DNA of 22,778 bases, taken from the IMG/VR virus record IMGVR_UViG_3300032278_000124, positions 1 to 22,778 of that record; one strand, given 5' to 3'. Both the position numbers and the translations under genes were made by a program. Shown here in pieces: positions 3,639-22,778 of the stretch. How positions within the stretch are numbered: the stretch's first letter is position 1; each line of letters begins with the position of its first letter. The stretch is from a virus. The notes beneath the pieces were generated by a model. The model did no database searches, was not told the origin of the DNA, and was given only the letters and a program-made list of their open reading frames with translations.

Positions 3639-4360
3639 TGCACGAAGCATGGCCGCGGTTCCGGTATCCGGAAAACTTGGCGGAGCCGGTGGAACTGTTA
3701 ATTTACGACGTGATAGGTTTTTCTGGCGTAACGGCGGAGGAGTTCACTGCGGAGCTTTCCGCGGTTCCCGCCGGGCGTGGCGTTGTGGTTCGGATAAACT
3801 CGTTCGGTGGCCAGGCGTTCGACGCTATGGCCATCTACAACCGGTTGCTGGACCGCAAGAAGCGGGGGACGGTGGCCACGGTGATTGACGGCGTTGGGGC
3901 CTCGGCAGCTTCGGTGATCTTCCAGGCCGGCGACACACGGACGATGAACGCCGGAACGGAGATTATGATCCATGAGGCGCAAAGTCTGCGCGCTGGCACG
4001 GCTGCCGATCACCGGAAAGAGGCCGACTTACTGGAATCCGTAAATGCGAATATTGCAGAGATTTATTCCGAGCGTGTGACAATTGAGCCCTCGGACGTTG
4101 CGGAGCTCATGACGGAAGAAACGTGGATGTCGGCGGCTCTGGCTATTGAAAGGGGCTTTGCGGACGATTCCGGGGCGTCCTCTGCCATTGCTGCCTGTGC
4201 CGGGTTTGAACTGTCTGGACTGAAGCGGCGGCCCTCTATGGCCCAAGCGAACGACTCCCGCGAGTTGACTCGCGAGGTGACGCGCAGGGCTCATGACACG
4301 AGGGTCCGGGAGCTGGAATTAAAGCGGAGGGGCTTGACTCAACTAGGGGGTTCGGTCTAG
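3638..4360 (+). CDS. Prohead maturation protease, ClpP/S49-like
   Basis: Self-compartmentalised serine protease that cleaves the capsid protein's scaffold domain during head maturation. Numbered from ATG 3638 (240 residues): GRGVVVRINSFGG (47-58) is the ClpP-type beta-strand and glycine loop, GVGASAASVIF (85-95) carries the likely nucleophile S92, and MIHEAQ (110-115) gives the catalytic H112. ETWMSA (161-166) lines up with the ClpP Asp region but has E161 where ClpP has Asp. The frame is open from 3578, but the first 20 codons overlap the upstream gene. AGGGGTGA just upstream of ATG 3638 and the TAATG overlap fix the start. The last 45 residues are a basic, helical tail. Confidence 0.93.
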   Translation: MHEAWPRFRYPENLAEPVELLIYDVIGFSGVTAEEFTAELSAVPAGRGVVVRINSFGGQAFDAMAIYNRLLDRKKRGTVATVIDGVGASAASVIFQAGDTRTMNAGTEIMIHEAQSLRAGTAADHRKEADLLESVNANIAEIYSERVTIEPSDVAELMTEETWMSAALAIERGFADDSGASSAIAACAGFELSGLKRRPSMAQANDSRELTREVTRRAHDTRVRELELKRRGLTQLGGSV

Positions 4361-4518
4361 TTTTAAAGTAGTGGCCTGGCCGTAGTCCGTCGACTGGGGA
4401 CTGCCGCTATCTGATGGAATTCGCATACTAGCGATCTGGCTTGCGTTCTATCGCCAACGATGGAGCGTTTCTTCATGCGCTCCTTCACCAATTTTCAACC
4501 AATTGGGGAGGCGCTACT
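4361..4518 (+). promoter_or_regulatory. Structured leader before the capsid gene
   Basis: 158 bases without a gene between protease and capsid. Three consecutive inverted repeats are visible: GTAGTCC/GGACTGC (4382-4388 with 4398-4404, one G-U pair), GGAGCG/CGCTCC (4462-4467 with 4478-4483) and CCAATT/AATTGG (4488-4493 with 4501-4506). The last ends at the edge of the GGGGAGG ribosome site (4505-4511). None is followed by a clear T-run, so terminators are unlikely. They may adjust stability or translation of the capsid mRNA. No convincing -35/-10 pair was found here. Confidence 0.4.
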
Positions 4519-5928: not shown

Positions 5929-6348
5929 ATGCAAGAATCTCAATCCGGACTTACTTCCGTTCTCCTGGCGCCTCAGGCCATGACGAATAGCGCCACCGTA
6001 ACTGCCAACCTAGACACTCGCGGTGCGGACTATGCCGAGATCACCGTTAACTTGTCGGCTGAGGTTAACACCAACGCTATCGGTCCGACTCTTAGTCTGT
6101 TGGAGTCGGACGACACGGTGGTAACTAACTTTTCAACGGTGGTTGCTGATGTAACGGCCAAGGACATTACCGCGGCAACGTTCCATCAGTGGCACGTTGA
6201 CAGTCGCCAGGTTCGCAAACGCTACTTGCGTCTGAGTGTCTCGACGGAGACAACGACGAACGACGACGTTACGGTTGGTGCAACTGCCCAACTGTATCGT
6301 CAGGATGAGGGTTTAGCACAATCCACAAATCTCGTGGTTGTTGTTTAA
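5929..6348 (+). CDS. Small beta-rich protein next to capsid, probable virion protein
   Basis: 139 residues rich in Thr, Val and Ala, with alternating hydrophobic strands (for example the DTRGADYAEITVNL segment, residues 29-42, and RKRYLRLSVSTETT, 96-109). No signal peptide, helix bundle or enzyme motif is visible. It has an excellent ribosome site (GGGAGGA, 5914-5920) and sits directly after the capsid gene, the usual place for decoration, head-fibre or head-stabilising proteins. I recognise this style of short beta-protein from phage structural clusters but cannot name a family. A strong terminator follows, so it may be the last gene of a high-level capsid transcript. Confidence 0.6.
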   Translation: MQESQSGLTSVLLAPQAMTNSATVTANLDTRGADYAEITVNLSAEVNTNAIGPTLSLLESDDTVVTNFSTVVADVTAKDITAATFHQWHVDSRQVRKRYLRLSVSTETTTNDDVTVGATAQLYRQDEGLAQSTNLVVVV

Positions 6349-6395
6349 GGCTGCAAAGCCCTCCCCTGTTTATTCGTCTTTACTGGGGGCTTGGA

Positions 6396-6438
6396 CCCCC
6401 TTACCCCCAAAGATGGCGGGTAAGGGGGAGGGTCTTTT
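6396..6438 (+). terminator. Intrinsic terminator after the capsid block
   Basis: A perfect 11-bp stem pairs CCCCCTTACCC (6396-6406) with GGGTAAGGGGG (6418-6428) around an 11-base loop, and TCTTTT follows at 6433-6438. It lies between the beta-rich protein and the methyltransferase-glycosyltransferase gene, on the strand of transcription. Partial termination would give more capsid than downstream message. Confidence 0.75.
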
Positions 6439-6457
6439 AAAATCAAGGGGGTTTAGC

Positions 6458-7666
6458 ATGTCGACAACAGCTACGGCTACATCTAAGAAGCCTTTTTTGA
6501 ATATTGGAAGCGGCGGAGTCCATCTAGGGAACGAGTGGGAAAATGCGGATATTGCAGACGGTACGGACATTCTTGACCTCGAATGCTTCGAGTCCGGATG
6601 GTTTAAGAAGATCCGTGCGTCTCATGTCTTAGAACATTTGTCATTCAAAGAGGTTTCAAGAGCGCTCGAACAAATCATGAGCGTTCTGGAACCGGGCGGT
6701 GTCCTGGAGATAAGCGTCCCCGATTTTGTCCGGATAATACAGATCAAAGCCCACGATGAAAATTGGCGGTTCTATTTGATGGGCGGCCAAACCGATGAAC
6801 ACGACTTTCACAAGAGCGTGTGGACGGTATCGACGTTGACGCGTGCGCTCGAGGATGCGGGTTTCGAGGGGATCGGGTCTTGGCGGGGAGATGCTCGGGA
6901 TACTTCTTCGCATGCGTGTAGCGCAAATCTCGTGTGCCGCAAGCCGGAGGACGATCTCCGACTCCCGGGACATCGCACGGGGGCGCCACAGGAGTCTGAG
7001 AAAATCAAGGTAGTGGCTGTAATGTCCCTACCGCGGGTTAGCTTCACGGATCACTGGGGACACACGATTGATGCGCTGTCCAAGTTCAATATTCCTATAT
7101 GGCGATCTACGGGGGTCTTCTGGGGCCAATGCATGCAGCGATTGTTCGAAAAGGCCTTGGCATCGGGTTTGGATTGGATCCTAACGATCGATTACGATAC
7201 CGTCTTCACCCAGGAACAACTGGATCATTTAATCGGAACGTTTGGGCGAAATAAGAAGATCGATGCGCTCTGTGCAATTCAAGCTCGCCGTAAAGGCGGG
7301 ACGGTACTTGCGGTGCGAAAAGGCAATACGGAACTCCCAATAGATGGCGGTCCTCAGCAGATTGATACGGGACATTTCGGCCTGACGCTTATTCGGGTGG
7401 ATGCTCTCAAGGATCTTCCGAAGCCTTGGTTTGCATCGAAGCCTGACGAGTCGGGCGGCTGGGATGAAGGGCGGATTGATGATGACATCTGGTTCTGGCA
7501 CCAATGGCGGGAGAATAAGCGGACTCTCTATATGGATACTGGTTGTAAGGTTGGCCACCTTGAGATTTGCGCGCATGATTTTGACGATAATTACGACCAC
7601 GAATTGATTACCGTTCCTGAGTGGCGTGAAAGGTATATGAGAGATGGCTCAAATGGAGACGGTTAA
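6458..7666 (+). CDS. Methyltransferase-glycosyltransferase fusion
   Basis: 402 residues from ATG 6458, set by AAGGGGG six bases upstream. The in-frame extension to 6338 crosses the terminator and is rejected. N-terminal half (about 1-165) is a class I SAM-dependent methyltransferase: LNIGSGG (14-20) is motif I, HVLEHL (56-61) and LEPGGVLEISVPDF (77-90) are later Methyltransf_11-type motifs. C-terminal half (about 183-402) is a GT-A glycosyltransferase: LTIDYDTVF (242-250) holds the metal-binding D245-x-D247, and DDDIWFWHQW (341-350) with VGHLE (365-369) match the acceptor/metal end of GT2-like enzymes. A linker of about 20 residues joins them. Likely substrates (virion protein, host glycan or nucleotide-sugar acceptor) are unknown. 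Its place in the head cluster suggests virion modification, which is inference. Confidence 0.85.
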   Translation: MSTTATATSKKPFLNIGSGGVHLGNEWENADIADGTDILDLECFESGWFKKIRASHVLEHLSFKEVSRALEQIMSVLEPGGVLEISVPDFVRIIQIKAHDENWRFYLMGGQTDEHDFHKSVWTVSTLTRALEDAGFEGIGSWRGDARDTSSHACSANLVCRKPEDDLRLPGHRTGAPQESEKIKVVAVMSLPRVSFTDHWGHTIDALSKFNIPIWRSTGVFWGQCMQRLFEKALASGLDWILTIDYDTVFTQEQLDHLIGTFGRNKKIDALCAIQARRKGGTVLAVRKGNTELPIDGGPQQIDTGHFGLTLIRVDALKDLPKPWFASKPDESGGWDEGRIDDDIWFWHQWRENKRTLYMDTGCKVGHLEICAHDFDDNYDHELITVPEWRERYMRDGSNGDG

Positions 7667-18070: not shown

Positions 18071-20032
18071 ATGCAAATACTATGGCGGAAGAACACGGCG
18101 TTCGGGCTTTCATTTCCGATTGTCGATAAGGAAAACCCCGACGCGTTCCTTGCTACGGGCAGTCCGACCGTGCTTGGATATTACAACGATTCCGGAACAT
18201 GGACTACGCTGCCCAGCCTCGGCGCGGTTACGCACATTGCATCGGGTTTATGGTCCATCGACTTGACGGCAGCGAATCTCAATCACGATAAGGTTATCCT
18301 TAAGGTTACCCATAGCGGGGGTTTAGATACTGCGTTTTTCTTTGACCTTGAAGCCGAGGAGAAGTTAAGGGACCTGGACAAGTGGAGAGGTACGCAACCG
18401 AGTACGCTTAATAACGCCAAGGTGCAGGTTGACGTGCAGCGGTGGATCAACGGTATTCCTAACGCGTTGAGCACGGGAAGCGTTGACACCAATATCAGGC
18501 TATGGCGCGGCAACGAGCCCCTGATCCTTAACAATGATTACGTACAATCGTCTGTTGGCGAGATGCAAGCGGATGTCGTTACGGCTGCGGCGATTGCTTT
18601 AAACGCGATTACATCGTCCGAGTTAGACGCGACAGCCGTAACCGAAATACGCGATGCTATCATTTCGGATGGGAACGCATTCGCGGGCGGCAACATAGAT
18701 GCGGCGATATCGTCGCGGTTGGCGCCGACCATTGCTGGCCGTACGTTGGATATCAATGGTGTAGGAAAAGCCGAGGCGGACGTTGTGCAGTGGCTGGCGG
18801 TTGCGTGTTCTCCGGTTACCACGGGCGGGTTGCCGGAAGTTGACATTTTACACTGGAACGGAGCCGCAGTAGCTACGCCAACCGTTGCGGGCGTTCCGGA
18901 GGTGGACGTCACGCACACTGAGGGGGCTGCCGTCGAAGCAACATCGGGCAGGTTCGACGTTGACGTGCATTTGTGGAACGGGGTGGCGGTAGCGGCGCCG
19001 AATGTGCCTGGAGTCCCAGAAGTTGATGTCAACTATTGGCGAGCATCGGTTCCAGGCCTTTTGGCTAACGATGCTGTCCCCGCAAATACGACTACCTGGA
19101 ACTCTGCTGCGGTAGCTGCGCCGGCAGTTTCTGGCGTTCCTAAAGTCGATCCGACGCATTGGAACGGGGACGCGGTAGCAACGCCAACAACGGCGGGAGT
19201 CCCCGAAGTGGACCTAACATACTGGCGAGGGTCGGAACCAAACTTGCTTGTCTCAAACCGTATCGATGCGAGCGTCGGAGCAATGGCAACGGACACGATG
19301 AACGCAGATGCCTTGGCTATAGATGCATTGGCTGAAATCAATGCGCAGGTGGATACGGCGATTGCCGACGCCCACCTTGATCATATATTCCACACGGGCG
19401 GCCAAGCTCAATCGGCCTCTACTGCTACGGTGACGAGGACCAACCTAGCCGAGGTTACTTCGGAGCATTATCGTGGGATGACTCTTCATTTCGTGACGGG
19501 AGCGCTATCTGGTCAGGCGCGCCCAATTGTGTCGTACGACGGTTCTGCGAAGTACCTTACCACCCTGGCCTTCACCGAGGCGCCTGCCAGTACTGACGAA
19601 TTCGTCATTAAAACCGACCATTGGGGCGCCGATGTCAATCAGTGGCTCGCGGCCGCAGTAGCTGCGCCAACTGTTGCGGGCGTTCCGGAGGTGGACGTCA
19701 CGCACATCGCCGGCGTAACGTCCCCGGCGACGTCCTTGCGTCGATTGTACGAGGACACGGTTAGCAGCGTGGTGAACGATGGTGCTCCCGCCGGCCATGC
19801 GTTCACAACGAGCCTGTCGAGCGCTGTGAACGACGCGTACCGGAATTGGGTATTGGTGTTCTACACGGGCTCGAACTCGGGGCATGGCCGCCGGGTCGTG
19901 GATTATAACGGGGCGACGAAGGCGGTGATTCTGGACGAGCCGTTTCCGCACGCTGTGGCAAACACGGATGCGTTTATTCTTTACGCGGCCGTGTATGTTC
20001 CCCGATTCCAGGATCGGACCGAGATTTATTAA
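18071..20032 (+). CDS. Repeat-rich tail fibre / receptor-binding protein
   Basis: 653 residues, the last and largest gene of the structural block. An N-terminal beta domain (1-95) is followed by W-x-G repeats (W105, W125, W145), a linker helix (165-200), then a run of about 21-residue repeats with consensus PEVDVTHWNGxAVATPTVAGV (about 255-385, again at 518-545). Interrupting them is a domain that appears twice: YRGMTLHFVTGALSGQARPI... (467-513) and YRNWVLVFYTGSNSGHGRRV... (590-637), both 'tG...GxxRxixdYdg'. Such repeats build trimeric fibre shafts; the duplicated domain may sit as knobs or blades. GGGGAC precedes ATG 18071. Receptor binding is inferred from architecture and position. Confidence 0.82.
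   Translation: MQILWRKNTAFGLSFPIVDKENPDAFLATGSPTVLGYYNDSGTWTTLPSLGAVTHIASGLWSIDLTAANLNHDKVILKVTHSGGLDTAFFFDLEAEEKLRDLDKWRGTQPSTLNNAKVQVDVQRWINGIPNALSTGSVDTNIRLWRGNEPLILNNDYVQSSVGEMQADVVTAAAIALNAITSSELDATAVTEIRDAIISDGNAFAGGNIDAAISSRLAPTIAGRTLDINGVGKAEADVVQWLAVACSPVTTGGLPEVDILHWNGAAVATPTVAGVPEVDVTHTEGAAVEATSGRFDVDVHLWNGVAVAAPNVPGVPEVDVNYWRASVPGLLANDAVPANTTTWNSAAVAAPAVSGVPKVDPTHWNGDAVATPTTAGVPEVDLTYWRGSEPNLLVSNRIDASVGAMATDTMNADALAIDALAEINAQVDTAIADAHLDHIFHTGGQAQSASTATVTRTNLAEVTSEHYRGMTLHFVTGALSGQARPIVSYDGSAKYLTTLAFTEAPASTDEFVIKTDHWGADVNQWLAAAVAAPTVAGVPEVDVTHIAGVTSPATSLRRLYEDTVSSVVNDGAPAGHAFTTSLSSAVNDAYRNWVLVFYTGSNSGHGRRVVDYNGATKAVILDEPFPHAVANTDAFILYAAVYVPRFQDRTEIY
18863..18917 (+). repeat. 55-bp direct repeat in fibre gene, copy 1
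   Basis: Matches 19652-19706 at 53 of 55 bases (differences A/G and C/T, at 18875 and 18883). Codes for part of the AVATPTVAGVPEVDVTH repeat unit. Near identity at the DNA level over synonymous sites points to recent duplication or ongoing recombination. Confidence 0.85.
19652..19706 (+). repeat. 55-bp direct repeat in fibre gene, copy 2
   Basis: Second copy of the repeat at 18863-18917, 789 bases downstream and in the same reading frame (789 is divisible by three). Homologous recombination between the copies would delete 263 residues without breaking the frame. Confidence 0.85.
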
Positions 20033-20076
20033 CTTCGCTCCTCTCGCAAGGCAAGTCGAAGTCCTGCGGCCCTCCT

Positions 20077-20104
20077 AACCGTAGAATCAGCGGAATCTAC
20101 GGTT
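20077..20104 (+). terminator. Possible terminator after the fibre gene
   Basis: AACCGTAGA (20077-20085) pairs perfectly with TCTACGGTT (20096-20104) around a 10-base loop, and the 3' arm runs into TTAT. It lies 45 bases after the fibre stop. The 3' arm is also the first of the tandem repeats, so a protein-binding role is an alternative. Confidence 0.4.
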
Positions 20105-20142
20105 TTATCTACGGTTTTATCTACGGTTTTATCTACGATTAG
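20095..20142 (+). repeat. 12-bp tandem repeats (iteron-like)
   Basis: Three exact head-to-tail copies of ATCTACGGTTTT at 20095-20106, 20107-20118 and 20119-20130, then a decayed fourth (ATCTACGATTAG, 20131-20142). A further half-copy lies inverted at 20077-20085. The period of 12 is close to one helical turn, so repeats would face nearly the same side of the DNA, as in iteron origins or cooperative operators. Confidence 0.85.
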
Positions 20143-20162
20143 ACCGGCCTGTGGCTCTGCCC

Positions 20163-20195
20163 ACTTTGTGCAACAGCCAGGCTGTTGCACAAAGT
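20163..20195 (+). repeat. Perfect 33-bp palindrome
   Basis: ACTTTGTGCAACAGCC (20163-20178) and its exact reverse complement GGCTGTTGCACAAAGT (20180-20195) flank a single A. No T-run follows on either strand, so it is not a standard terminator. Candidate roles are a dimeric-protein operator, a recombination or resolution site, or an origin hairpin. Confidence 0.9.
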
Positions 20196-20219
20196 AATAA
20201 GGTTATTCGGGAACCTCCC

Positions 20220-20248
20220 TTGAATCGTTATGCAAGAGGGGTTATCCT
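20220..20248 (+). promoter_or_regulatory. Candidate sigma70-type promoter for csrA
   Basis: TTGAAT (20220-20225) and TATCCT (20243-20248) are separated by 17 bases, each matching the consensus at four of six positions. It overlaps an imperfect inverted repeat (20212-20222 with 20233-20243). Predicted by eye only. Confidence 0.35.
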
Positions 20249-20289
20249 CCGTGTGTTTGCATTGCCAACCTTGTATTGAGGAGCTGAAC

Positions 20290-20457
20290 ATGCTGATCCT
20301 AAGCCGTCGCCGTGGCGAGACGATACACATAGGCGAAGATATCGTCATAGAAATCAGGCATGTTCGCGCGGACCTGGTCCGTGTTGGGATCTCGGCCCCC
20401 GAGCATGTCAAGATATTGAGGGGAGAACTTTTTGACATAGAGGACGACGATGGCTAG
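20290..20457 (+). CDS. csrA: CsrA/RsmA family RNA-binding regulator
   Basis: 55 residues, nearly the whole length of a bacterial CsrA. MLILSRRRGE is the conserved first strand, IGEDIVIEI and VRADLVRVGISAP (25-37) follow the family order, and L4 and R44 (in KILRGELF), key RNA-contacting residues in known CsrA, are present. The dimer binds GGA motifs in mRNA hairpins, usually over ribosome sites, blocking translation or altering stability. ATG 20290 is chosen because it begins the conserved strand and GAGGAG lies six bases before it; an in-frame ATG at 20230 would add 20 unrelated residues. It opens the early-type module. The acidic tail (DIEDDDG) is short. Its targets, phage or host, are unknown. 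Confidence 0.93.
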   Translation: MLILSRRRGETIHIGEDIVIEIRHVRADLVRVGISAPEHVKILRGELFDIEDDDG

Positions 20458-20461
20458 AAGC

Positions 20462-20485
20462 GCCCCATGGGGCATCTTGATTTTT
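20462..20485 (+). terminator. Weak terminator-like hairpin after csrA
   Basis: GCCCCATGGGGC (20462-20473) is a perfect palindrome, followed seven bases later by TTTTT (20481-20485). The gap between stem and T-run and the tiny loop make it weak. The palindrome contains an NcoI-like CCATGG core that may matter only by chance. Confidence 0.25.
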
Positions 20486-20533
20486 ATCCTGTTCGGCAAT
20501 TTAACGTAAACGAATTTTGGGAAAGGAAACACA

Positions 20534-21583
20534 ATGCCAACCGAACTGGTCGTACAATCGGACGAACAAGCAGCGAAGATGCAGGAATCGACACAACTTG
20601 CGAACACTTGGACGGTCCAGGACCTCGTCGATTCGGCGCAGAAGGTCAAGGAAGCCATGGCGCAGGCCATGTCGGCCGACGTGCATTATGGCGTGATCCC
20701 GGGAACCCGGGGGAAGCCGAGTCTATGGAAGCCTGGCGCGGAGAAGCTGTGCAGTCTGTTCCGGCTCGGAACACAGATCGAGCTAAACCGTACGGAGCTG
20801 GACAACGGGCACTTGGAAGTTGAGGCCCGCGTGAGGCTGGTGCACCTCCCCACGGGGAGACATGTGGGCGAGGGGGTGGGAAGCTGCACGACGATGGAAA
20901 GCCGTTATAGGTTTAGGGGCTGGGAGGGTAACGGAACGGAGCGTAAGCGGGTCGAGAACAGCAACCCGTGGGACCTGCGGAACACTGTCGTTAAGATGGC
21001 CTGTAAGCGGGGACTGGTTGCCGCAACACTGATTGTCACGGCTGCGTCTGACGTGTTTAGCCAGGACGTGGAGGATGTAGTAGGTCTGCAGACTCCACCT
21101 CCTCCTCGCCGGCGGGCGCCGCCCAAGTCTGCACCCCCAAGTCGCGAGAATCTCGGGGAAGTCCTGACAGAGGAGGCCCGCGGGTTCGACCAGGGGACGG
21201 ATGCTAAGCCCGTCTCGGACTTTGGGGCTATGGCCGCGGCGCTCAAGGACGATCAGAGCGGGCTAAAGCCACAGGAGTTTGATCGGGGGGATAAGGCGCT
21301 GGCGTGGGTCGATAGCTGCCGGGAGCGTGGGAGGGTGCCTAGGGAGGAGGTAGAGGATCTCTATTGGATCGTGATTGTCCTGATCTGCGGGCTGGCCGAA
21401 GGGGACCACGACGGGGCGATAGCGTGCGCCGAGTGGCTGCACGGACTCCTCTCGCGTGGGGCTATCACGGCGGACGTGCTTGATACGGCCAAACAGCTAG
21501 TATACGAGACGTCAGGGCTCCAGCCGGATCGCGAGATCAAATCGTTTTTGGGTGACGAGGGGACGAGCGAATCAAGTGGGTGA
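20534..21583 (+). CDS. Possible ssDNA-annealing/recombination protein
   Basis: 349 residues from ATG 20534, with AAAGGAAAC upstream. Residues 30-182 form a compact, recognisable phage domain: VKEAMAQAMSADVHYGVIPG (38-57), KPSLWKPGAEKLCSLFRL (61-78), VRLVHLPTGRHVGEGVGSCTTMESRYRFRGW (100-130), PWDLRNTVVKMACKRGLVAATLIVTAASDVFSQD (145-178). The order of a strand-rich 'GxGxxs' part, then a basic 'NTxxKMAxKRAxVxAxL' helix recalls Erf/RAD52-like annealing proteins, so a role in phage recombination or replication is plausible. I recognise the domain as widespread in phages but not its accepted name. A Pro/Arg-rich linker (187-204) leads to an unrecognised helical C-terminal region. Confidence 0.6.
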   Translation: MPTELVVQSDEQAAKMQESTQLANTWTVQDLVDSAQKVKEAMAQAMSADVHYGVIPGTRGKPSLWKPGAEKLCSLFRLGTQIELNRTELDNGHLEVEARVRLVHLPTGRHVGEGVGSCTTMESRYRFRGWEGNGTERKRVENSNPWDLRNTVVKMACKRGLVAATLIVTAASDVFSQDVEDVVGLQTPPPPRRRAPPKSAPPSRENLGEVLTEEARGFDQGTDAKPVSDFGAMAAALKDDQSGLKPQEFDRGDKALAWVDSCRERGRVPREEVEDLYWIVIVLICGLAEGDHDGAIACAEWLHGLLSRGAITADVLDTAKQLVYETSGLQPDREIKSFLGDEGTSESSG

Positions 21584-22277
21584 CGACCTATCGGCGCTTA
21601 TTGCCCTGGTAACCGATCGGGAGGTTTCCACGGTCGCGGCGGCGGCGGCCCTAAGGGAGATCTGGGACAGGCGTCTCGCCGGAGACACCCCCGAGGACTT
21701 CCTTGCCTTCTGTCGCTCGCGATGGAGCCTAACCCGGTTGCAGGTCCGGGAAGCCTTCCAGATGCTCTCTACGGCCACGCGGCTCAAAGGCCAGTATAGG
21801 GGGCACCAGTTCTACGAGCGACTCCTGCGGCCACTCAGGGACCTTACGCCCGCCGAGCAGGGGCAAGTGTACGCCAAGGCGGTCGAATTAGCGGGCTCGG
21901 GGGAGTGGGGAGAACCGGTCGTTACCCCGGCAGTGATTCGGCGGGCTCGCTCTTTGCTTTTTCCGCCGCAGAGGGCCGAGAAGACGGAGGCGGAGCTTTG
22001 GGAGTCGGCGCGGAAGAAGTGGCAAACGTTCTTAAATTCGACGGAAAAGCTTCCGTGGCAACAAGTTAAGGCCCCTTTAAGGCGAATTGACAGCTGGCTA
22101 GTAATTGGGGGGGGGGCGGACGATGGAAGAAGTAAGGAAGACGCTGAACAAGGACCTACACAATCCGGGTCGGATAACCGGGGCGGCGGTGGCGGCGGGG
22201 AAGCCGATCGGGGCGGGGACGAGGCTGGTGAAGGTGGCGGTAAGGTGCAGGGGCTGTGGAATTGGCCTCGGGGGTGA
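21576..22277 (+). CDS. HTH / ParB-like DNA-binding protein
   Basis: 233 residues from GTG 21576 (overlapping the previous stop by 8 bases); GTG 21552 is an alternative and neither has a good ribosome site. RRLAGDTPEDFLAFCRSRWSLTRLQVREAFQML (about 29-61) has the spacing of an HTH in KorB/ParB-like or plasmid-control proteins, and YERLLRPLRDLTPAEQGQVYAKAVELAG then VTPAVIRRAR (about 79-124) matches the helical segment that follows it in many phage versions. It may bind the repeat region upstream of csrA (inference). After a G10 tract at 22107-22116 the C-terminus becomes low-complexity Gly/Asp/Glu, suggesting the frame is wrong there or the end is dispensable. Confidence 0.65.
   Translation: MGDDLSALIALVTDREVSTVAAAAALREIWDRRLAGDTPEDFLAFCRSRWSLTRLQVREAFQMLSTATRLKGQYRGHQFYERLLRPLRDLTPAEQGQVYAKAVELAGSGEWGEPVVTPAVIRRARSLLFPPQRAEKTEAELWESARKKWQTFLNSTEKLPWQQVKAPLRRIDSWLVIGGGADDGRSKEDAEQGPTQSGSDNRGGGGGGEADRGGDEAGEGGGKVQGLWNWPRG
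22107..22116 (+). repeat. G10 homopolymer
   Basis: Ten consecutive G near the 3' end of the HTH gene. A +1 shift here would join the HTH reading frame to the next ORF. Could be a slippage-prone tract or a miscounted homopolymer. Confidence 0.9.
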
Positions 22278-22752: not shown

Positions 22753-22778
22753 ATGGACCAAAAAGGCCTAAATTACAC
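22753..22778 (+). CDS. Start of a further gene, cut by the window edge
   Basis: ATG 22753 reads MDQKGLNY up to the edge and is preceded by GAGGAAA (22742-22748) at good spacing. Only eight codons are visible, so nothing can be said of function. It indicates that the early-type operon continues to the right. Confidence 0.4.

Follow-up and report, generated by a model that had tools for sequence, protein, structure and literature searches.

A small repeat hairpin cassette common to otherwise unrelated phages, with a possible role in transcription termination

Background

In this study, we report a small intergenic cassette in the DNA of a phage, in which the 3' arm of a hairpin is reiterated in tandem at a pitch of 12 bp, and find that it is a real cassette common to otherwise unrelated phages. 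The sequence analysed in full (hereafter the window) is a linear 22.8-kb IMG/VR virus record (22,778 nt) which reads as a tailed phage with its genes on one strand. The tandem 12-bp reiteration of the 3' arm together with TTTT, in phages that are unrelated, is the unusual part of the element. From its sequence features, we tentatively interpret positions 20077-20137 as a transcription-termination or insulation cassette between the structural (late) genes and a probably early block holding csrA and a putative annealing protein, the likeliest of the interpretations considered, although we give it slightly less than an even chance.

Gene organisation around the gap

Terminase, portal and capsid genes of the window were recognised by Pfam, and further structural genes extend up to position 20032. 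The portal had a single relative in IMG/VR, at 31% identity, and the gene adjoining the gap had none there. Inside the structural block, a 442-aa ORF (6338-7666) carries an N-terminal methyltransferase domain (Pfam Methyltransf_23). Between the stop codon at 20032 and the csrA start at 20290 lies a gap of 257 nt with no credible gene overlapping it, in agreement with an earlier sequence-only reading that had placed no gene in 20077-20195 and had seen a control region as one possibility; the gap does have the look of a deliberate control region. Genes without known function follow the putative annealing protein up to the window end at 22778. The features of the gap and its surroundings are as follows.

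18071-20032, plus strand: gene for a 653-aa product without a family, which closes the structural block; the hairpin lies 45 nt past the stop codon
20077-20104, plus strand: hairpin with 5' arm AACCGTAGAATC, loop AGCG and 3' arm GAATCTACGGTT, the arms having a single A-A mismatch; the repeat array opens with the 3' arm
20095-20137, plus strand: tandem array of 3.6 exact copies of ATCTACGGTTTT, each copy holding the complement of the 5' arm and then TTTT
20138-20142, plus strand: ATTAG, decayed remainder of a fourth copy, read from the sequence (a 95% copy in the repeat search)
20163-20195, no strand assigned: perfect 16+1+16 palindrome, ACTTTGTGCAACAGCC A GGCTGTTGCACAAAGT (20163-20178 and 20180-20195, 100% complementary), without a T-run
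20290-20457, plus strand: csrA, first gene past the gap, 55 aa; Pfam PF02599, E 7e-19; PHROG CsrA-like regulator
20534-21583, plus strand: putative single-strand annealing protein, 349 aa; PHROG 10048 (function unknown); Rad52/RecT-like predicted fold

A GAGGAG ribosome-binding site, read from the sequence, lies directly 5' of csrA, a phage-borne gene for a post-transcriptional regulator whose relatives have a scattered distribution. CsrA, an RNA binder, was the sole recognised binding protein near the array, which lies about 150 bp upstream of it. The product of 21552-22277, previously proposed to be HTH/ParB-like, belonged to no Pfam or PHROG family and its model reached a pLDDT of only 44, and the proposal was not borne out.

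The structure of the 20534-21583 product was modelled from an alignment of 14 sequences (pLDDT 70). The model matched human RAD52 (Foldseek probability 1.00, E 8e-4; VIA Z up to 8.9, over 86 residues) as well as phage RecT/Erf-family proteins (BFVD E 1e-13), and the predicted structure has the fold of the Rad52-type core domain. Residues in the motif SLWKPGAEK of the PHROG 10048 protein are invariant, and PHROG 10048 is likely to be a family of single-strand annealing proteins. Because the model matches both RAD52 and RecT/Erf-type proteins, the gap appears to form the border between the structural genes and a block for recombination; the recombination-type gene expected downstream of the repeats is thus supported by its predicted fold.

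Repeat array, hairpin and palindrome

Tandem Repeats Finder (TRF) reported the array at 20095-20137 with a period of 12, 100% matches and a score of 86, the highest of any array in the window. Three full copies are followed by ATCTACG and then by the decayed tail, which matches the unit at 9 of 12 positions. The arms of the inverted half-copy (20077-20088 and 20093-20104) are 92% complementary across a 4-nt loop. RNA folding of 20070-20111 gave a stable stem-loop of -13.1 kcal/mol (z -3.9), with no shuffled sequence folding equally well. The 9-nt half AACCGTAGA of the 5' arm is exactly complementary also to copies 2 and 3; when the whole array was folded, the 5' arm had several copies as possible partners, and none of the resulting structures dominated.

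The longest period-12 self-match run was 31 in the window and at most 12 in 100 mononucleotide shuffles, and the longest perfect palindrome arm was 16 in the window and at most 11 in 20 such shuffles. The 12-bp repeats, the inverted half-copy and the palindrome described earlier from the letters alone were therefore all recovered at their positions by TRF and repeat searches, above shuffled controls.

The palindrome at 20163-20195 is a feature separate from the hairpin and array. Its region folded at -32.2 kcal/mol (z -3.5), and it had no match in the viral contigs or fetched loci and no convincing one in plasmids or phages, which also led us to reject an IS-end junction as its source. Apart from this palindrome and the hairpin at 20077-20104, no strong intergenic inverted repeat was found anywhere in the window. 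An Rfam search returned no family, and a literature search on the repeat strings found no paper.

The same cassette in three other phages

Viral contigs were scanned for the exact 20-mer ATCTACGGTTTTATCTACGG, which was matched in three contigs, L041 (G001), L042 (G002) and L043 (G003), besides the window (G000), and was absent from the genomes of 84,980 bacterial and archaeal species. An exact 18-mer had zero matches in Verrucomicrobiota genomes, and the relatives of the annealing protein (39-41%) came with neither csrA nor the motif.

L041 and L043 follow one plan, consisting of an arm AACCGTAGATTC, a short loop, GAATCTACGGTTTT and one further ATCTACGGTTTT, and L042 has three 12-mers with a closer inverted arm. 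Each contig holds a single cassette, always intergenic and with an array of 42-61 bp; the copy numbers across the four phages are 2, 2, 3 and 3.6. In an alignment of the four cassettes, 33 columns were invariant and the loops variable, with the 12-mer and its 12-bp pitch fully conserved. The centre between the arms is largely self-complementary in the window, L041 and L043, and these three also have the tail TTTTATCT past the arm.

Pairwise DNA comparison of the four contigs found 24-42 nt in common at 90-100% identity. The cassette scored E ~1e-9 to 1e-12 in four of the six pairs (the window against each other contig, plus L041 against L043) and 2e-5 to 7e-6 in the remaining two, and nothing outside it was stronger than E ~0.009. 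At the protein level, the window and L042 had terminase, portal, one head gene and CsrA in common at 26-33% identity; the sole other match, between L041 and L043, was the cassette itself, translated, and pairwise comparison found no protein common to all four phages. In L042 csrA lies at ~4220-4369; the other two fragments are without it.

The neighbours of the array also differ: a ParB-like gene and terminase in L041, a small terminase in L042 and a D5-type primase in L043. In all three contigs the flanking genes lie on the strand opposite to CTACGGTTTT, and the gene strand after the hairpin reads TTTG (L041), TTTTG (L042) or TTCC (L043). Two of these unrelated phages have a second short motif, TTGTTACC(A/G)GTTG, some 100 bp away from the cassette: L042 (9622-9653) holds it as a tandem pair, and in L041 (10427-10439) an inverted copy lies next to it.

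Several other explanations were discarded. An adapter or linker artefact might produce exact identity across contigs, but the loops and flanks differ between them, and the ATCTACGGTTTT unit resembles no sequencing adapter known to us. A cos/terminase site does not fit, as the array is just upstream of terS (Terminase_4) in L042 only and kilobases away in the others. Integrase arm sites at an attP were rejected likewise, an integrase being found only in L042 among the four and 15.5 kb from the array; single pattern matches near integrases in L102 and L105 may be due to chance. A CsrA-binding hairpin was suggested by ATGGA in the L038 loop but is not conserved, since L040 has no GGA.

Looser repeat arrays in further phages

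A looser scan for CTACGGTT-N4-CTACGGTT returned 79 stretches, many coding repeats and chance matches among them, and also two groups whose non-coding DNA holds several AACCGTAG copies. The first (L056 2540-3100, the same in L065, L075, L094, L100 and L112) has about a dozen units like AGTAAACCGTAG within some 520 bp of non-coding sequence; these AACCG units mostly have a pitch of 12-15 bp, and 22 nt of the L056 region are identical to the window array read on the other strand. The second (L048 2534-2671, L081 837-973, L099 4834-4949, and L106) has 4-8 AACCGTAG copies directly past a repA-like helicase gene, some of them in hairpins around GGGGGCTAAAGCCCCC. Both groups may belong to a wider pattern of the same kind. 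It seems quite unlikely that the 12-bp CTACGGTT/AACCGTAG arrays, comprising the four near-identical cassettes and the looser arrays of the L056 and L048/L081/L099 groups, are the cis site of one widespread factor, a site that many unrelated phages would use and that host chromosomes would exclude.

AT-rich viral contigs (L124, L152, L160, L192, L208, L216 and others) gave a further hairpin, AACCGTAGAG-loop-CTCTACGGTT, which has a T-tract and stands some 10 nt ahead of an ATG. It varies in loop and inner stem, and the gap of 7 nt is the same in about 94 matches; it is possibly a leader or start-site hairpin.

Proposed transcription termination and competing explanations

In the window cassette, a single 5' arm is followed by a spacer of 10 bases, within which a short inner stem can form, and then by tandem copies of the 3' arm with its T-tract, a design that would suit a terminator. 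The hairpin stands just past the inferred operon limit, before csrA, and runs directly into TTTTATCT. A consensus terminator scan raised no flag there; it allows loops of up to 8 and so passes over the mismatched stem. As the only strong intergenic inverted repeats, the two gap hairpins are the sole good candidates for ending the ~20-kb one-strand block. An ordinary terminator had been dismissed in the sequence-only reading on account of the palindrome, which indeed has no T-run; that dismissal does not extend to the hairpin at 20077-20104. Within the window, the repeat hairpin is better fitted by termination, the reading that had been dismissed on the palindrome alone.

We also searched the 84,980 species genomes for AACCGTAGA-N7-12-TCTACGGTT and obtained 96 hairpins in many phyla. 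A T-rich tail, defined as 6 or more T among 10 bases counted from the end of the stem on one strand or both, was present in 85 of the 96, a count that includes two stem Ts and slightly overstates the tail, and at least 4 consecutive Ts followed the stem-end point in 74. Judged by sequence, these genomic hairpins look like ordinary intrinsic terminators, and the 85 with T-rich tails suggest that this stem is one often reached by evolution for termination.

Under the termination reading, the hairpin would form in late transcripts, which would end at the first UUUU. A polymerase that reads through would reach the next copy, which could pair with the same 5' arm and supply another UUUU, so that transcription may have more than one opportunity to end within the repeats. 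Another hairpin, formed by the palindrome 60 nt beyond, could block read-through or shield the 3' end. We infer that so small a cassette may move between phages at module borders, its copy number shifting by slippage. Should the cassette be a terminator whose 3' arm is reiterated, it would be a simple route to a strong stop that slippage can tune. The chief argument against termination is orientation: with TTTG, TTTTG and TTCC on the gene strand, only one or two of L041-L043 could terminate sense transcripts well. Also against it, all 12 bases of the unit are conserved, which is more than a stem and U-tract need, and the fold of the whole array has no dominant structure.

The main rival is a binding array at the DNA level, since in L041, L042 and L043 the T-rich side lies on the gene-less strand. 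Here a phage or host protein would bind, as dimers arranged head to tail, the CTACGGTT half-sites together with one inverted copy, and would control csrA and the following genes or the preceding block. The full retention of 12-mer and pitch in four phages, the free orientation relative to genes, the position ~150 bp before csrA, and the AACCGTAG arrays with 12-15 bp pitch and no T-tracts in non-coding DNA of the L056 and L048/L081/L099 groups are all consistent with such a site, which would point to a factor common to unrelated phages. However, no DNA-binding family was found among the window proteins past the site, no protein is common to the four phages, and absence of the 20-mer from host genomes would be odd for a host factor; moreover, the self-complementary centre between the arms in three of the phages is something a protein array does not need. 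On the sequence evidence, we regard this explanation as possible but doubtful.

It is unlikely that the cassette is a tiny palindromic element, selfish or neutral, which has no function for the phage, spreads through recombination at short homologies and is copied by slippage. Phage annealing proteins favour recombination at short homologies, and the cassette occurs once per contig, always intergenic and with variable copy number and orientation, as such an element might. Yet its exact sequence is kept across phages with unrelated proteins, neither a target duplication nor a mobilising gene was seen, and the hairpin arms coincide with common terminator stems. Least probable is a replication origin made of iterons and a palindrome, which had been put forward earlier and which we consider very unlikely. 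Iteron-like tandem repeats (3.6 copies by TRF) with an inverted copy, a locally lower GC content (0.50 around the array, 0.556 overall), the recombination gene that follows, the D5-type primase adjoining the L043 array and the octamer arrays past a repA-like helicase gene in L048, L081 and L099 speak for it. The GC-skew check proposed with that idea turned out against it, as cumulative skew rises steadily through the site to the window end without change. No initiator gene was found in the window, which like the other contigs is a fragment, so that an initiator may lie further off; each array covers only 42-61 bp; and the surroundings of the four arrays have no gene in common, although an origin is usually transferred along with its initiator.

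Comparison with known systems

With its 42-bp extent and near-identity in phages that have little else in common, the cassette would be among the smallest exchangeable phage regulatory parts known. It resembles the iteron origins of plasmids and phages in its tandem short repeats and inverted copy, but differs in having no adjacent initiator, skew change or common module. Tandem 11-12 bp repeats are also found in ParR- and TubR-type centromeres, with which it has the 12-bp head-to-tail pitch in common; in contrast to these, the copies are few and no partition gene pair was found beside the window array.

The promoter early stem-loops (PeSLs) of T4-like phages are reported to be mobile promoter-terminator cassettes (cited in PMC4503421). 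Both are short stem-loop regulatory cassettes common to phages and tied to gene shuffling, and the present stem-loop likewise occurs at gene-block borders in several phages. It differs from PeSLs in belonging to unrelated, apparently non-T4 phages, in occurring once per contig, in its repeated 12-mer and in that no promoter was detected as part of it; a scan of 19900-20700, limited to sigma-70-type promoters, gave no site at its threshold.

Compared with intrinsic (Rho-independent) terminators, the cassette repeats its 3' arm and T-tract at exactly 12 bp, is common to unrelated phages and has its T-rich side antisense to the genes in three of the four. With those terminators that have AACCGTAGA/TCTACGGTT stems, it has in common the arms, a stable hairpin and, in the window, a T-rich tail and a position past the last gene of a block.
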